A stretch of 64,000 nucleotides of DNA from Thiomargarita sp. (lineage in GTDB: Bacteria > Pseudomonadota > Gammaproteobacteria > Beggiatoales > Beggiatoaceae): assembly GCA_020721005.1 (NCBI GenBank), contig DYNP01000003.1, positions 248,001 to 312,000 of the forward strand, written 5' to 3'. Below the pieces are notes generated by a model. The model was not told the DNA's origin. It ran no database searches and was given only the letters and a program-made list of their open reading frames with translations. This document shows, piece after piece, positions 36,409 through 44,551 of the stretch. Each line of letters opens with the position of its first letter. Within the stretch, counting starts at the first letter, position 1. The translations under genes were made by a program, and so were the position numbers.

Positions 36409-39400
36409 CTAATTTTCCATGGTCACTGGCAAACCCAAACCAAAAAAGTCTCGAATTCCTCTTAACATACGTTTATAAATCACTTCTCTTTCTATCTGAG
36501 GATCTTGAGGCAAATTTCCCATCTGAGCCTTAGTCATCAATTGACGTTCAGTCAACACTTTACTGATCAATTGAGACACTTCTGGCTGTTGCTGCAACAA
36601 GGGCAAAATATCTGCCTTGATGATTTCAAACAAATAAGTGTCATTCAAAGCAACCACAGTGGCGGTTCGATCTTGACCGGTCAACAAAGCCATTTCTCCA
36701 AAGAAACTGCCGGCGCCCAAGCGAGCCACTTCCAATATATTGTGGTCTTCGGTGCGGATTTGCACACTGACCACCCCTTCCACAATGATGAAGAGAGAAT
36801 CTCCCACATCTCCTTGTTGCACAATGGTTTGTCCTGTAGTGAACTGATGGCTGCGCATTCGATTACTCAGATAAATTTTAGCCTGCTCAGAAAATGGTTG
36901 AAAAATATCGATTTCTTTAAGTAAGGTCAGGCGGTGGGTAGCTTCTTCCCCCCGCTCTTTAATGCCACGAAACATATGAATTTTATGTTGTTGGATAGCA
37001 GGATTAATGCCAGCTCGATTAAGATGAATCCATACTCTTTCCCAAACTTCTTCTAAAATAAAAGGTTTGCGTTCAAAATCGTCCGCACATACCACTACGA
37101 AATAGCTGGCTGACCATTCATTCACGCCTGAAAAAATGACCATGGGTTTGGGGTCTTTGACAATACTTTTAACTGAGAGTAGGGCATCCAAGAGAATTTT
37201 TTCGACTCTTTCTGGGGGATGAACGGCATCAATATGGACGGTGGGCCAGAGCCAGAAATACTGGTCAGAAATGGTGAAATTCCGAATGGTGGATTCGGAA
37301 GCTTTGCTATTGGGAATGGTAAACACGGAATTATCACGCATTCTCAATTGAGTGGCTCGCCAGTTAATATCCAACACTTTACCTTCTTCAAAATCTCCAA
37401 TTTTTACCCAGTCCCCCACTCGCAAAGGCCGTTCCAAATTCAAGGCAATGCCTGAGAAAATATTGGAAATGTTGATTTGAATGGCCAAACCAATGATCAT
37501 GGCAATAACTCCAGAAGTGGCCAATAAGCTGGTGAGGGCACGTTCGTAAACAAAGGCAATTACCGCAAAGAAAGCGAGCAAGTAGACCAAGAAAGAGACA
37601 AAACGTCGCACGATATTGGGAATGGTTTGCCCGGTCCTTTCTTCCAATGGGGTCCAGATAAATTGTTCAGTGGCACGGTTGAGTAAAATGGCTAAAATGG
37701 TCCACCATAGTACATCAAAGGATTTGATCATAAATTCTAGTACTTGAGTACTGGTTTCTTGGGCTAACCAATCTACTAAAACCACTTCTATGGAGAATAG
37801 TAATAGGAAGGCAAATAGGACTCTTAAAATCCATAGGACATTGAAAAATTGTTGTAGTTGTTTGTTTCGGATAAGAAAAGTGGAGAGGAGAATAACAATG
37901 CAGCTGATAAGTAACACTCCCCTCATGATTTTGACTGATACTAAATTGTTAAGTGAAAATTCATTGCGTTTGATGAGAATTCCGGCATTAAATTTTGAGT
38001 ATTGAACATTCCCATCTGAGGAGGCGAGGAATTTGGGATTGCCCAAGGTGTCTTCCTTTTCTACTCCTTGGAATACCCAGGCTTGTCGAATGCTCCAGTC
38101 ATAGGTGGGATTGAGCACTTTGGCAGTTTGTAATTTTTCTACAAAAGATTGCCCTTTGGTTAATCCCATGCCCAGAAAGTCTGTTACATAAACCAGGTTG
38201 TTTAAGTTCAGTTCCCGATGCCGAAAACTAATTCCCAAAATATGTTGTTTAAAGGTGTGATGTTGAGATAAGAAATCGGCTTTAAAGCGCCCTTTTACTC
38301 GATAAAAAAGATAGGTAATTTTATCCACAGTTTCTTGGTTGATCAATTTGGGATAGATGGGCTCTGCTGCATTTAGAAATTCAATATTGGCTGCATCAAT
38401 TTGTCCTTGAAAACGAAACCATATGTCAAAATCCAGTTCGCAGATAAAATTGATCAGATCCAATTCCTTAATTCCATTCAGTTTTATTCCAGTGTACACT
38501 ACATTGGTTTTGTACATGTATTTCCCATCTAATATGAGAATACGATCTTCTTCCAAACCACTCTTCAGGTCAATTCTGGTTTTGTCCAAGTTGTTGACCA
38601 GTTGAAGTTGGGTGAGGGCGGAAATAATATTTTTATGTTTATAGACCCCAATCACAATGGGTTTTTGAGCGTCCCGATTCTCGTCAAAGTAATTGAATCC
38701 AGTTAATCCGGGAATTGCATGGTCCAAATTGTTAAGATCGGCTAAGAAGTCTCGAATTTTTCGTCGATCTTGGATAAGGGTGTGGGCTTCTCCTTCAATT
38801 TGAGTGGCTTCAATGGCTTTTACCAAAACCATGGCGGTATCATAGGCATAAGCTGCTGACCAATCTGGATTTTGTTGATAGCGGTTTTTAAATTCTTCAT
38901 AGAATTGTTGAGCTTGTTCATTGGCAGTGTCAAAAATCAGAGGGGTAGCTACGTAAATATCATCTGTGTAATAACCGGGATAAGCCTGCTCTCTTGGGAA
39001 TTGATCGAAACCACGGATAAAGGTTTGTTCCGAGAAACTGGTTTCACTGATAAGAGGATTGAGAATCCCTTGTTCCCTAATGTGTTTGACCAAGCGAATA
39101 CCTTCACTGGCTTGAACTGCTAGGAAAAGGACGCCTGCCTTGTCTTTGGTTTTCAGGTCGCTGACAATAGACTGTAGGGTATTTTCCAAATTAGGGTCAT
39201 TGGAGTTGAAATGCCATTGGTATTGGATTTGAATATTTTGACGAATAGCTTCTTTTTCAAAGACTTGAGCCAGGTAAGCACCATAGGCATCGCTTTCATG
39301 AATGATGCTGACTCGGGTTCGTTTAAGCACATTTTTGACATAGTTGGCTAAGAATTGTCCAGAGGCATTGGCGTTAAAAATATTTCTGAAATACCAAGGA

Positions 39401-39828
39401 TTGCCTTGGGTAACGTGAATATTGGTGGAACCTGGGGTGATGGCAGGTATTCCATATTGTCGATAAATGCGACCTGCCGCAATGGAGGTGGAACTGTACC
39501 AATGCCCAATCACAGCCACTGCCTTATGATTGCGGGTGATGGCTAAGGCTTGTTTTTCGGCCTGTTTAATTTGGTTATAATCATCATAAATATCCAATTG
39601 CAGTGTTCTGCCTCCCACTCCTCCACTCTGATTAATTTTGTCAAAATAGAGTTGAATGGCTTGAGTCATTAATTGTCCCGCAGTAGCTCCATCCCCTGTC
39701 ATAGGACCTGCAAAGGCAATGTGAATAGGTGACTTTTCAGTTGATAAGGGACTGTACTCAATTATCCACCAAATTGCAATGGTTACAACGCTACTGAGCA
39801 ACAAAATGATAAACCAGCTAAAACGCAT
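36409..39828 (-). CDS. Three-part fusion: periplasmic ligand-binding, MscS-type channel, cNMP-binding
   Basis: Residues 1-25 anchor the protein. Residues about 35-365 look like a branched-chain-amino-acid-type periplasmic binding protein (Peripla_BP_6): IHIAFAGPMTGDGATAG, VGGRTLQLDIYDDYN and AVIGHWYSSTSIAAG, ending YAYDTAMVLVKAIEA. A second extracytoplasmic region (about 370-630) follows. Hydrophobic helices at about 635-760 lead to the MscS core with LLATSGVIAMIIGLAIQ (about 766) and LNLERPLRVGDWVKIGDFEEGKV. Residues about 971-1095 are a cyclic-nucleotide-binding domain with GDSLFIIVEG and the pocket FGEMALLTGQDRTATV, keeping the key Glu and Arg. MscS-cNMP channels (bCNG type) are known; the added binding protein is unusual. 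It may gate ions in response to both an outside ligand and cAMP or cGMP. Confidence 0.82.
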   Translation of the reverse strand: MRFSWFIILLLSSVVTIAIWWIIEYSPLSTEKSPIHIAFAGPMTGDGATAGQLMTQAIQLYFDKINQSGGVGGRTLQLDIYDDYNQIKQAEKQALAITRNHKAVAVIGHWYSSTSIAAGRIYRQYGIPAITPGSTNIHVTQGNPWYFRNIFNANASGQFLANYVKNVLKRTRVSIIHESDAYGAYLAQVFEKEAIRQNIQIQYQWHFNSNDPNLENTLQSIVSDLKTKDKAGVLFLAVQASEGIRLVKHIREQGILNPLISETSFSEQTFIRGFDQFPREQAYPGYYTDDIYVATPLIFDTANEQAQQFYEEFKNRYQQNPDWSAAYAYDTAMVLVKAIEATQIEGEAHTLIQDRRKIRDFLADLNNLDHAIPGLTGFNYFDENRDAQKPIVIGVYKHKNIISALTQLQLVNNLDKTRIDLKSGLEEDRILILDGKYMYKTNVVYTGIKLNGIKELDLINFICELDFDIWFRFQGQIDAANIEFLNAAEPIYPKLINQETVDKITYLFYRVKGRFKADFLSQHHTFKQHILGISFRHRELNLNNLVYVTDFLGMGLTKGQSFVEKLQTAKVLNPTYDWSIRQAWVFQGVEKEDTLGNPKFLASSDGNVQYSKFNAGILIKRNEFSLNNLVSVKIMRGVLLISCIVILLSTFLIRNKQLQQFFNVLWILRVLFAFLLLFSIEVVLVDWLAQETSTQVLEFMIKSFDVLWWTILAILLNRATEQFIWTPLEERTGQTIPNIVRRFVSFLVYLLAFFAVIAFVYERALTSLLATSGVIAMIIGLAIQINISNIFSGIALNLERPLRVGDWVKIGDFEEGKVLDINWRATQLRMRDNSVFTIPNSKASESTIRNFTISDQYFWLWPTVHIDAVHPPERVEKILLDALLSVKSIVKDPKPMVIFSGVNEWSASYFVVVCADDFERKPFILEEVWERVWIHLNRAGINPAIQQHKIHMFRGIKERGEEATHRLTLLKEIDIFQPFSEQAKIYLSNRMRSHQFTTGQTIVQQGDVGDSLFIIVEGVVSVQIRTEDHNILEVARLGAGSFFGEMALLTGQDRTATVVALNDTYLFEIIKADILPLLQQQPEVSQLISKVLTERQLMTKAQMGNLPQDPQIEREVIYKRMLRGIRDFFGLGLPVTMEN

Positions 39829-41437: not shown

Positions 41438-44400
41438 TCATTCCCATTCTTTGGTACCTTCGATGATTCGCTCATAAATGCCCATTAGTGCAGGAATTGC
41501 CAATAACACCAATACTGTCGAGAACATGAGACCAAAGGAAATGGAAATTGCCATGGGAATTAAAAATTGAGCCTGTAATGAAGTCTCAAATAAAATAGGT
41601 AACAAACCAAAAATTGTAGTTAAAGAAGTCAGTAGTACCGCCCTCAAACGTTGGCGTGACGCTTCGGTTAAGGCCACTTTGATTGGCACTCCTTCTCTTC
41701 GTAAGTCGCGATAAAAAGTGACCAGCACAATGGAATCATTAACCACCACTCCGGACAATCCAAAAAATCCAAATAGAGAAAGAATCGTCAGATCAACTCC
41801 CATCACCCAATGTCCAAATAGCGCGCCCACTAGACCAAAGGGAATAATGCTCATGACAATTAAGGGCCAACCGTAAGAAGCAAATTGCCAAGCCAAAACT
41901 AAATACATCAGCGCCACAGCAAATACCAGTCCCAACTTCATATCACCAATAGTTTCTGCTTGATCAGCCGCTCGGCCTTCAAAAGAATAATCTACCCCAT
42001 AACGTTGTTTCAATTCAGGAAAAAAGTTTTCCACCAAGTTGGCAATGATTTTATTGCTGTTGGCAACCGTGCTGTCCACGTTGGCAGAAACTTGGGCTGC
42101 TAATAGACCTTCTGAGTGACGAACTGTTTCAAATCCGCGCCGAGTTTTGATATGCACTGCCGTTGAAAAAGGCACACTGCCCCCTTTTGGCAATTGTAGA
42201 GTGAATTTATCTAAGCTACTCAACTGATAGCGTTCCTCATCGGGCAAAGAGACCCGCACTTCTATTTCATCTTCTCCCTCTTGGAAAATTTGCACCAAAT
42301 GACCATCAAAGGCAGCTCGCAACTGTTCTCCCACAGAATCTATTGTCAGTCCCAAAGCCATGCCTTCTGGAGTTAATGAATAAATCCACTGTTCCCTACC
42401 ATAGGGCAAATCATCTTCAATGCCACTCACGCCTTCAAAAGTTTCCAAAACTTTTTTCAATTCCAAAGCAGCATTTTTGACCTGATCAATCTGATTTCCA
42501 ATCAATCGAATGTCAATATCACTGCCAGGCGGTCCCCCTTTACGTTCCGAAAGGACCAGATTCTCTAAACCTGGGGGAGTGATAATTTTAGCCCGCCAAG
42601 CCTTGAGAAAATCTTTATTTCTCACCTGTAAACGATGATCAGGAGAAGTCAACTCTATCATCAGAGACCCAAACTGATCACCATTACGACTGCCTGAGGG
42701 TTCAGTAATACTGCTGCCATGTCGAACCACTGCCATTTTGATGAGATCACCTCCCAAATCCTGCTCAGTTTCCATCAATGTGCTTTCCAAATGACTCAAA
42801 AATCGATCGACTCTTTCGGGAGGAGTGCCCGCCACGAAATTGGCATTGGCCATCACAATCGTACCATCTGGAGAAGGAAAAAAGGTAAAGTTAACCCGCC
42901 CACTGATCAGTAATGAGATGGCTAAAGCCAACAGGGATAACATGAAAGTGAAAACTGCCCAACGATATTCAACCAACACGGTTACCATGGGATGAAAAAA
43001 TCGATCTCGAACCTGGTCAAAACCTTGTTCCAATTTCTGACGAAGCGCACTGTTTTGAACATGATGCAGTTTGTGAAAAGTGTGTCGCAAATGCCCGGGC
43101 AAAACAAAAAAACATTCGATGAGAGAGGCAATGAGCACACAGATCATCACCAAGGGAATGTCAAATAAAATATTGCCCATGAGACCACCGATAAGCATGA
43201 GGGGCAAAAAGGCAGCCATTGTGGTTAAAGAAGCAGAGATAACTGGGGCCAGCATGCGTTGAGCTCCCCCCTCAGCAGCCAATAGGGAACGTTCACCCAT
43301 TTGAAAATGAGTAAAAGCATCTTCTCCCACCACAATGGCATCATCAACCACCACTCCAAGCGCCATGATCATGGCAAATAAACTGATCATGTTAATGCTT
43401 CCACCCACTAAATACAATACTCCCAACATGGTCATGATTGAAGTAGGAATGCCCATGGCTACCCAAAAAGCCACCCGACCATTGAGAAAAATGAACAAGG
43501 TAACCACGACTAGAATCAGTCCACCTAACCCATTGTTGATCAAGAGATTAATGCGATCTGCAATCAATTCCCACGACTCATCATAAACTTTTAAAGTCAC
43601 AGTACCAGGCAATTTAGGTTGAGTTTCTGCCAACCAAGTTTGCAAAACTTTAGCCGATTCTAAGGCATCATTCTCTTCAGCTCGCATCAACTGCAATTCC
43701 ACTGCCGGTTTGCCTTGATAAGTCAGTCTCACTTCTCCATTTTGGGGACGTCTCTCAATGGTGGCCACATCTCCCAATTTCAAATAACGGCCTTGATTGT
43801 CCACCGTAAGGGGTAAGTCGGTAAATGCCAGTTCACTCCGTCTTTGTTCCAAAGATCGCAATTGTCGAGCCACATCGGAACGGCCAACGGCCCCGGCTGG
43901 TAGATCTCGACTGAATTTAGCGATTTGATTGCCAACTTCAGTGAGACTGAGCCCCAATTCTTCCAATTGAGAACTGTTAATTTGAATGGCAATTTCTTCT
44001 TCAGGCAACCCTTCTATATTAATTTTACTGATGCCACGTTTAAGTAATTCTCGCTCAATTTGTTGAGCAAGATGGCGCAATTCATTGGGATCACTGGGAC
44101 CTGTGATGAGAAGACGTGCAATGGGATCGTAACGTACCAATCGACCAATTTCTGGTTTTTCAGCCGTTTTTGGCAAATTGCGCAGTAGAGAAACCCGGTC
44201 TTTGACTTGATCGAGAGCCCAACCCATGTCAGTATGTTCTTCAAATTCCAACATAATTGCTGATAAGCCGTTGGCTGAAGTGGAATTCATTTTACGAACT
44301 CGATCCAAGGTTCGCAATTCTCTTTCAATTGGTGAAGTGATTGAGGTTTCAACATCTTCCGCAGGTGCTCCACTCCAGATCACAGTGACTTGCACCACAT

Positions 44401-44551
44401 CTAGGGCGAAATTGGGTAAAAATTGAATATTCAAGCGGGTCAGTCCCCAGATACCAGCCATGAGCATCATCAGCATGAGTAAATTGGCAGCGACTTTATG
44501 TTGGGCAAAAATACCCACAAGGTTAGTTTGATGTTGAAATGTGGATTGCAT
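41438..44551 (-). CDS. RND-family efflux permease (AcrB/HAE1-like)
   Basis: Inner-membrane proton-driven pump subunit of 1037 residues, the normal size. Hydrophobic helix clusters lie at about 15-35, 340-550 and 870-1030, with two large periplasmic loops in between. The proton-relay Asp pair is seen in ALGVVVDDAIVVGEDAF (TM4), and TM10 holds GLSGVVVNDSIVL. The permease family (HAE1 class, drugs or related compounds) is clear; the substrate is not. The usual membrane-fusion partner is not adjacent; upstream is 221 bases of noncoding DNA, then a TpsA gene. It must therefore pair with a periplasmic adaptor coded elsewhere or outside the window. Confidence 0.9.
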   Translation of the reverse strand: MQSTFQHQTNLVGIFAQHKVAANLLMLMMLMAGIWGLTRLNIQFLPNFALDVVQVTVIWSGAPAEDVETSITSPIERELRTLDRVRKMNSTSANGLSAIMLEFEEHTDMGWALDQVKDRVSLLRNLPKTAEKPEIGRLVRYDPIARLLITGPSDPNELRHLAQQIERELLKRGISKINIEGLPEEEIAIQINSSQLEELGLSLTEVGNQIAKFSRDLPAGAVGRSDVARQLRSLEQRRSELAFTDLPLTVDNQGRYLKLGDVATIERRPQNGEVRLTYQGKPAVELQLMRAEENDALESAKVLQTWLAETQPKLPGTVTLKVYDESWELIADRINLLINNGLGGLILVVVTLFIFLNGRVAFWVAMGIPTSIMTMLGVLYLVGGSINMISLFAMIMALGVVVDDAIVVGEDAFTHFQMGERSLLAAEGGAQRMLAPVISASLTTMAAFLPLMLIGGLMGNILFDIPLVMICVLIASLIECFFVLPGHLRHTFHKLHHVQNSALRQKLEQGFDQVRDRFFHPMVTVLVEYRWAVFTFMLSLLALAISLLISGRVNFTFFPSPDGTIVMANANFVAGTPPERVDRFLSHLESTLMETEQDLGGDLIKMAVVRHGSSITEPSGSRNGDQFGSLMIELTSPDHRLQVRNKDFLKAWRAKIITPPGLENLVLSERKGGPPGSDIDIRLIGNQIDQVKNAALELKKVLETFEGVSGIEDDLPYGREQWIYSLTPEGMALGLTIDSVGEQLRAAFDGHLVQIFQEGEDEIEVRVSLPDEERYQLSSLDKFTLQLPKGGSVPFSTAVHIKTRRGFETVRHSEGLLAAQVSANVDSTVANSNKIIANLVENFFPELKQRYGVDYSFEGRAADQAETIGDMKLGLVFAVALMYLVLAWQFASYGWPLIVMSIIPFGLVGALFGHWVMGVDLTILSLFGFFGLSGVVVNDSIVLVTFYRDLRREGVPIKVALTEASRQRLRAVLLTSLTTIFGLLPILFETSLQAQFLIPMAISISFGLMFSTVLVLLAIPALMGIYERIIEGTKEWE

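Follow-up and report, generated by a model that had tools for sequence, protein, structure and literature searches.

The open reading frame examined here occupies positions 36409-39828 (minus strand) of a 64,000-nucleotide stretch of a Thiomargarita sp. genome (contig DYNP01000003.1), referred to below as the window. It probably encodes a natural chimeric channel subunit, in which the receptor parts of a pentameric ligand-gated ion channel (pLGIC) fused to a periplasmic binding protein (PBP) sit on the pore and cage of an MscS-type channel, with a cyclic-nucleotide-binding (cNMP) domain below; such a protein would have arisen from a PBP-pLGIC by replacement of the pore. The proposal builds on the domains and their order, the homology of the middle domain, the recurrence of the architecture, and the fact that MscS-borne copies have all but lost the pLGIC coupling motif, all taken from sequence comparison.

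The gene is a single uninterrupted ATG-to-stop frame of 1139 residues. A preliminary description had proposed a fusion of PBP, MscS and cNMP parts within this frame, in the order Peripla_BP_6, extracytoplasmic region, MscS, cNMP; both the fusion and the order are borne out by four Pfam matches, all above the curated cut-offs, and by end-to-end relatives. An N-terminal hydrophobic segment (residues 3-25; 39754-39822, this and the following on the minus strand) may be a signal anchor or a signal peptide. It precedes a two-lobed type-I PBP domain (Peripla_BP_6, 132 bits; residues 34-393; 38650-39729), closest among solved structures to proteins titled extracellular ligand-binding receptor, amino-acid or branched-chain amino-acid binding protein. 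Residues 400-630 (37939-38631) form the pLGIC-type ligand-binding domain (LBD); between residues ~394 and 640 there is no match in Pfam (E up to 1), and NCBIfam is likewise blank there. The transmembrane part (residues 632-790; 37459-37935) ends in the MscS pore helix and is followed by the two cage domains of the MscS superfamily, the β domain (MS_channel_2nd, PF00924, 68 bits; residues 787-852; 37273-37470) and the cytoplasmic α/β domain (MS_channel_3rd, PF21082, 28 bits; residues 865-942; 37003-37236). With the C-terminal cNMP_binding domain (78 bits; residues 995-1080; 36589-36846) and its Glu/Arg pocket, this half of the protein has the composition of a bacterial cyclic-nucleotide-gated (bCNG) channel.

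Hydropathy peaks at residues 8-19 and four more times between 636 and 787, and YnaI is the best MscS-family match among solved structures (phmmer, residues 638-850, E 2.6e-15). On account of these peaks and this match, the PBP and middle domains are predicted to lie in the periplasm, with the MscS cage and the cNMP domain on the cytoplasmic side. The transmembrane helices before the cage perhaps number five, as in YnaI; a full-length AlphaFold2 (AF2) model from five rows (pLDDT 46) served only for the N-terminal helix, which it places at residues 3-25, and for a hint at helix number. This predicted topology agrees with the second extracytoplasmic region of the preliminary description, which had missed its identity as a Cys-loop-receptor-type LBD, and fits the idea of a candidate ligand-gated channel read from both sides of the membrane.

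By sequence comparison, residues ~400-630 are homologous to the LBD of pentameric ligand-gated (Cys-loop/Pro-loop) channels. The link runs through relatives that carry the same head on a genuine pLGIC pore. Residues 400-652 alone find two of these by phmmer, L042 (E 5e-54) and L041 (E 6e-32). The latter is a 788-residue paralogue on contig C108 of the window's own genome, with PBP and LBD on a pLGIC pore, and has only window residues 27-632 in common with the window protein. After the LBD, L041 and its relatives continue for ~100-120 residues that form the pLGIC pore; Neur_chan_memb matches L042 (32.4 bits), L045 (28.7) and L031 (28.5; cut-off 28.1), and others more weakly. Among the 14 pLGIC-type members, eight match this family at E 0.01 and five match Neur_chan_LBD. 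The NCBIfam ligand-gated channel models TIGR00860 and NF033918 match L041 (E about 3e-7) and L042, far below their curated cut-offs.

Profile comparison gives the same picture. A profile of 21 MscS-borne LBD rows (A2) aligns by hhalign with one of 16 LBD rows nearly all on pLGIC pores (A3) at probability 100 and E 1.5e-80, with 41% identity over 233 columns; one A3 row, L059, later proved to have neither a pLGIC nor an MscS pore. The comparison was repeated with 28 MscS-only rows (A7, drawn from the Beggiatoa-type family and further classes of its phylum, plus L010) and 14 rows comprising LBD and pLGIC pore (A6), and gave E 3.4e-69. Searched against the PDB, the LBD-only A3 profile reaches GLIC at E 3.4e-5, and A6 matches GLIC over both domains (E 1.6e-17), with GABA-A receptors among its other matches. 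The window protein has the extracellular β-sandwich LBD of a pLGIC; after it, the pLGIC-pore profile finds no four-helix M1-M4 pore (E 0.001), and the MscS part stands there instead.

Fold comparison agrees with this chain. Residues 400-652, modelled with AF2 from five rows, give a structure of low confidence (mean pLDDT 61); the best 50 of its 1426 Foldseek matches (E up to 10) are GLIC, the extracellular domain (ECD) of a bacterial pLGIC, and acetylcholine-binding proteins (AChBPs), the best of those listed reaching E 2.0e-3 and probability 1.00 at query-length TM scores of 0.25-0.31. Four of these rows (three entries) are titled as conotoxin complexes, which we take to be AChBP as well. Re-aligned with VIA-align, the 50 listed of the same matches are GLIC, GLIC chimeras or the bacterial pLGIC ECD (3igq), at Z 6.8-7.4, values that are not by themselves decisive.

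What sets the two pore types apart is the contact between head and pore. In pLGICs, a salt bridge between the Pro-loop and a residue of the β10-M1 linker couples the two (PMC4795631). Among 20 pLGIC-type LBDs, the Pro, Asp and Gln of the P-x-D-x-Q motif occur in 20/20 each and the pre-M1 Arg in 19/20 (one gap); in 41 MscS-type LBDs the corresponding counts are 4/41, 5/41, 0/41 and 1/41, the single Arg being the window's. In the tree set, the complete motif is found in 20/20 pLGIC-type and 0/28 MscS-type rows. At the window's Pro-loop position (residues 519-531; 38236-38274, minus strand), the canonical P-x-D-x-Q is absent (HTFKQH at 524-529): HHTFKQH replaces xYPxDxQ, and Lys527 stands at the place of the acidic partner of Arg621, the residue at the pre-M1 position, so that the pair of Pro-loop motif and pre-M1 Arg is missing as such. 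MscS-type copies often carry distinct motifs instead, with KQH frequent in the Beggiatoa-type family and GSH or GT in other rows. Elsewhere in the domain, conservation is higher. For positions conserved in 16 pLGIC-type rows, the mean frequency of the same residue in 36 MscS-type rows is 0.81 in β2/loop D, 0.80 in β3-5, 0.82 in β7/loop B/β8, 0.60 in F/loop C, 0.63 in β1-2 and in β10/pre-M1, and 0.37 in the Pro-loop stretch; the stretches were assigned from the GLIC alignment of A3, and the rows of both types are related and do not represent independent events.

Full-length relatives recur in the Beggiatoa-type family and beyond. The LBD is present in 30 of 42 genomes of that family, in 14 of 369 genomes of a class sample (four of them from the family), and in 41 of 398 genomes of a phylum sample that includes the window's genome. 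The family's 145 LBD matches correspond, once merged, to 135 places, and at 75 of these at least (25 genomes) an MscS domain follows 406-730 bp downstream; this is a lower bound, since the other 60 places include pLGIC-type copies and some MscS-type ones, such as G007:C33:95381, where MscS was confirmed. Seventy of the 75 have a spacing of 406-445 bp, which therefore represents one joint. Among 19 loci in other phylum-sample genomes, 17 have LBD and MscS, one has LBD and pLGIC pore (L116), and one has a stop after the LBD (L111); a cNMP domain is present in none of these 19 frames, four of which are cut by the locus end. All four parts occur in frames of another class (L130 and L131, genome G511) and, wholly or partly, in other families of the class (L083 and L088). 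Within these samples, the PBP-LBD-MscS arrangement is widespread, and the cNMP domain is by the sequences an addition mostly in the Beggiatoa-type family. Closer copies include L009 from Candidatus Halobeggiatoa sp. HSG11 (51% identical) and L010, recorded as Desulfonema limicola (48% identical, cut by the contig end). Judged by its closest named relatives, the window's genome would itself fall within the Beggiatoa-type family. The window's genome encodes five LBD proteins in all; on contig C104 a full copy adjoins one without the cNMP domain, and on C44 a 530-residue LBD-MscS protein (L005:1225-2814, minus strand) has neither PBP nor cNMP domain, and a shortened Pro-loop region.

Several relatives carry further parts. 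L083:733-4953 (plus strand), from another family, is a 1407-residue PBP-LBD-MscS-cNMP protein with ~280 extra N-terminal residues, of which the first 276 have no Pfam match. Three PBP-pLGIC channels (L042:409-4044, L043:477-4070 and L046:7362-11015) bear a C-terminal SBP_bac_1 solute-binding domain, on the side that is extracytoplasmic in pLGICs, giving two different binding proteins per channel subunit. In L034:691-3711 (plus strand), DUF697 lies in frame ahead of a PBP-pLGIC, possibly as a cytoplasmic N-terminal addition or through an unset start codon. L059:1023-4397 (minus strand; G032, Beggiatoa-type family) joins a PBP and an MscS-like LBD without P-x-D-x-Q to a membrane segment followed by a region resembling P-loop NTPases (GESGLGKT; AAA_22 at 21.6 bits, below the cut-off of 27; NACHT at 13.9), and has no pore; PADLOC returned nothing on it. 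The NTPase may be a third output for the PBP-LBD head. The frame L009:454-3561 (plus strand), whose opening letters before the PBP presumably resemble the start of MetK, is found again in L098 (G033), apparently on the same contig, and reflects either a genuine if unusual junction or faulty assembly of a single genome.

In 13 of the 42 family genomes, a copy without the cNMP domain lies directly upstream of a copy with it, in invariable order; these 13 are the genomes chosen for looking paired. About 25 to 1350 bp separate the open frames, the pair of the window's own genome being L007; in G026 the upstream frame is short. The arrangement suggests that the tandem copies are co-expressed, and their subunits perhaps build a hetero-oligomer. 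The window gene has no tandem partner.

As the preliminary description stated, the cNMP pocket retains its Glu and Arg, here Glu1045 and Arg1054 in FFGEMALLTGQDRTA; the strict pocket pattern is found in 21 of the 25 relatives to which a cNMP domain was assigned. Its nearest solved relatives are the regulatory domains of PKG and PKA, with cGMP-dependent kinases as the best PDB matches. The pocket motif reads R-T-A, presumably a hint at cGMP in view of the differences between PKG and PKA. The window's genome encodes 16 class III cyclase domains above the cut-off, which makes gating by a cyclic nucleotide plausible.

Regarding origin, a PBP-pLGIC that exchanged its own pore for that of MscS is a better starting point than the bCNG channel with added N-terminal domains of the preliminary description, because PBP and LBD also sit as a unit on a genuine pLGIC pore in relatives. 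In a tree computed without the Pro-loop columns and rooted on a plain pLGIC (L075), by a quick method without bootstrap, the 28 MscS-type LBDs group together within the pLGIC-type ones as a single clade (SH-aLRT 99). Most likely, a single replacement of the pLGIC pore by MscS in a PBP-pLGIC ancestor was followed by spread and duplication; on the trees, a second replacement is possible.

In the working model, the ancestor would have been a PBP-pLGIC, of which L041 is the surviving paralogue, and its four-helix pore would have been exchanged for that of MscS. The PBP, and possibly the LBD too, would bind a small molecule outside the cell, perhaps an amino acid, since the solved relatives of the PBP are largely amino-acid binding proteins. 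Capture of this ligand would alter the force on the MscS membrane helices, and the pore would open, or its tension threshold shift, via a rebuilt contact between LBD and membrane; cAMP or cGMP would tune the channel from inside. Where Beggiatoa-type bacteria have tandem copies, the two kinds of subunit, one lacking and one bearing the cNMP domain, would combine in a hetero-oligomer. A more far-reaching form of this model, put forward tentatively, treats PBP and Cys-loop LBD as a portable sensor moved to an unrelated output; the Cys-loop-type head would gate MscS via a newly evolved coupling surface, with the symmetry mismatch solved by a sevenfold LBD ring, a fivefold MscS, or hetero-oligomers of tandem subunits.

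The periplasmic head might instead be a mere structural or assembly cap, or a decoy that captures ligand, on a bCNG-type channel gated by tension and cyclic nucleotide alone. This would explain why the Pro-loop motif and the pre-M1 Arg are almost always lost from MscS-type copies, and frames of ~480-530 residues that match only window residues ~640-1130, with neither PBP nor LBD, do exist in the Beggiatoa-type family. However, the stretches of the LBD that are likely to face a ligand stay similar (0.60-0.82) where the Pro-loop stretch has dropped to 0.37, PBP and LBD are under constraint between the window and its nearest relative (L008), and the LBD is retained without a PBP in L005 and L088. 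A cap or decoy is accordingly an unlikely reading, though one to be kept in mind.

The chimeric-channel reading has a number of points against it. Searched against the PDB, the MscS-borne profiles reach no pLGIC (A2 has one unrelated match at E 0.45, A7 none), and Pfam finds no pLGIC family in the 28 A7 members (0/28) and no family common to two of them; this is probably the reason why the domain was left unannotated. The connection of MscS-borne copies to pLGICs runs via the pLGIC-borne relatives, and the middle domain as a single sequence gives nothing useful (best PDB match by phmmer a viral large T antigen, E 0.55). The LBD model (pLDDT 61) has no Foldseek match at E 0.001 or better and TM scores of 0.25-0.31, its VIA-align Z values are below 8 and alone not decisive, and the full-length model is poor (pLDDT 46). 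The tree described above is a quick one without bootstrap and carries long-branch warnings; a first, larger tree, which included further long-branched rows, is poorly resolved, requires two pore-type changes, and unites the MscS-type LBDs in 32% of 200 bootstraps. One MscS-type copy, L010, retains Y-P-x-D and is the only one of 28 rows to keep P-x-D. Loss of the coupling motif could mean that the LBD gates nothing any more. As pLGICs are pentamers and the solved MscS channels heptamers, an LBD on MscS may have lost the ability to build a receptor ring or an inter-subunit binding site.

Taken further, the silence of PDB and Pfam on the MscS-borne LBDs and the modest confidence of the domain model would suit an unrelated β-sandwich that merely resembles a pLGIC LBD, the protein then being a PBP-bCNG fusion with an unnamed spacer. 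This is very improbable in view of the phmmer match to pLGIC-borne L042 and the hhalign E-value of 1.5e-80, and because the pLGIC-borne copies can be recognised as such from the pore that they carry and their match to GLIC.

The fusion frame is confirmed as real and not an assembly error, because full-length relatives recur in the Beggiatoa-type family and beyond. The nearest relative, L008 (a separately recorded Thiotrichaceae metagenome-assembled genome), is 70% identical and aligns over window residues 1-1132; synonymous sites are saturated (pS 0.76), and dN is 0.22 overall and 0.16-0.25 per domain. By a reading of gene lists, with no formal synteny test, its gene neighbours are unlike those of the window gene. 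The window's genome has a second full-length copy, 55% identical, on a different contig; L008 and this paralogue together refute joining by error, which the preliminary description had considered. Nor do relatives as a rule split the domains into two genes, L111 being the one case, with an in-frame stop between LBD and MscS parts and MscS and cNMP-like sequence in frame past it. The internal in-frame stops in a few relatives (G018:C11, G001:C522, G035:C359, L111 and others) would suit an assembly artefact or decaying pseudogene, a reading that is scarcely credible given the independent record of L008, the strong constraint relative to it, the paralogue, and the nearly constant LBD-MscS spacing in mostly stop-free frames of 25 genomes.

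Among known systems, PBP-pLGIC and MscS-cNMP channels are already on record, and the combination of a Cys-loop LBD with an MscS pore is apparently new; among the papers listed by a literature search that covered few subscription papers, none describes it, which is not proof of absence. The bCNG channels (Caldwell et al. 2010, as cited in PMC4560390) reportedly consist of an MscS pore and a cNMP domain. They have the MscS pore and cage, the C-terminal cNMP domain and the canonical Glu/Arg pocket in common with the window protein, but are not known to carry a PBP or a pLGIC LBD. Relative to YnaI and the MscS superfamily, with the same pore helix and β and α/β cage, it adds a periplasmic receptor head of ~600 residues. 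GLIC, ELIC and AChBP have the LBD fold and homology in common with it; the window protein has neither the pLGIC pore nor the Pro-loop motif. AChBP is itself a natural LBD without a pore or any channel.

PBP-I fused pLGICs of alphaproteobacteria have been known since 2004 (PMC549065, Genome Biol 2004). They too begin with a type-I PBP followed by a Cys-loop-family LBD, but keep the four-helix pore, where the window protein has MscS with cage and cNMP domain and has lost the Pro-loop motif. The bacterial pLGIC DeCLIC likewise has extra N-terminal periplasmic domains; unlike those of the window protein, they are two β-rich domains on a pLGIC pore (PMC9897478). Some MscS subfamilies are said to possess extra ligand-binding domains and sizeable extracellular loops (PMC4560390), and laboratory chimeras show pLGIC heads to be exchangeable between pLGIC pores (PMC4795631). 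Nature appears to have gone further and combined a pLGIC head with a pore that differs in fold and, as far as is known, in symmetry. Because one genome holds paralogues in which two pores bear heads of the same kind, comparing them isolates what the head-pore interface needs and opens the modularity of Cys-loop heads, and their stoichiometry, to testing. They also offer a source of bacterial channels that might respond jointly to a nutrient outside the cell, to tension in the membrane and to a second messenger inside. If true, the portable-sensor proposal would define a new class of receptor channel.

A gene upstream of the channel gene and in the same orientation (41438-44551, minus strand) encodes, by reading of its sequence, an RND-type efflux protein; two small frames, one per strand, lie between, and there is no sign of an operon shared by the two genes. 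A scan near the channel gene gave 16 promoter-like matches against 10.3 expected (sd 3.3), and four terminator-like ones against 4.8 expected.

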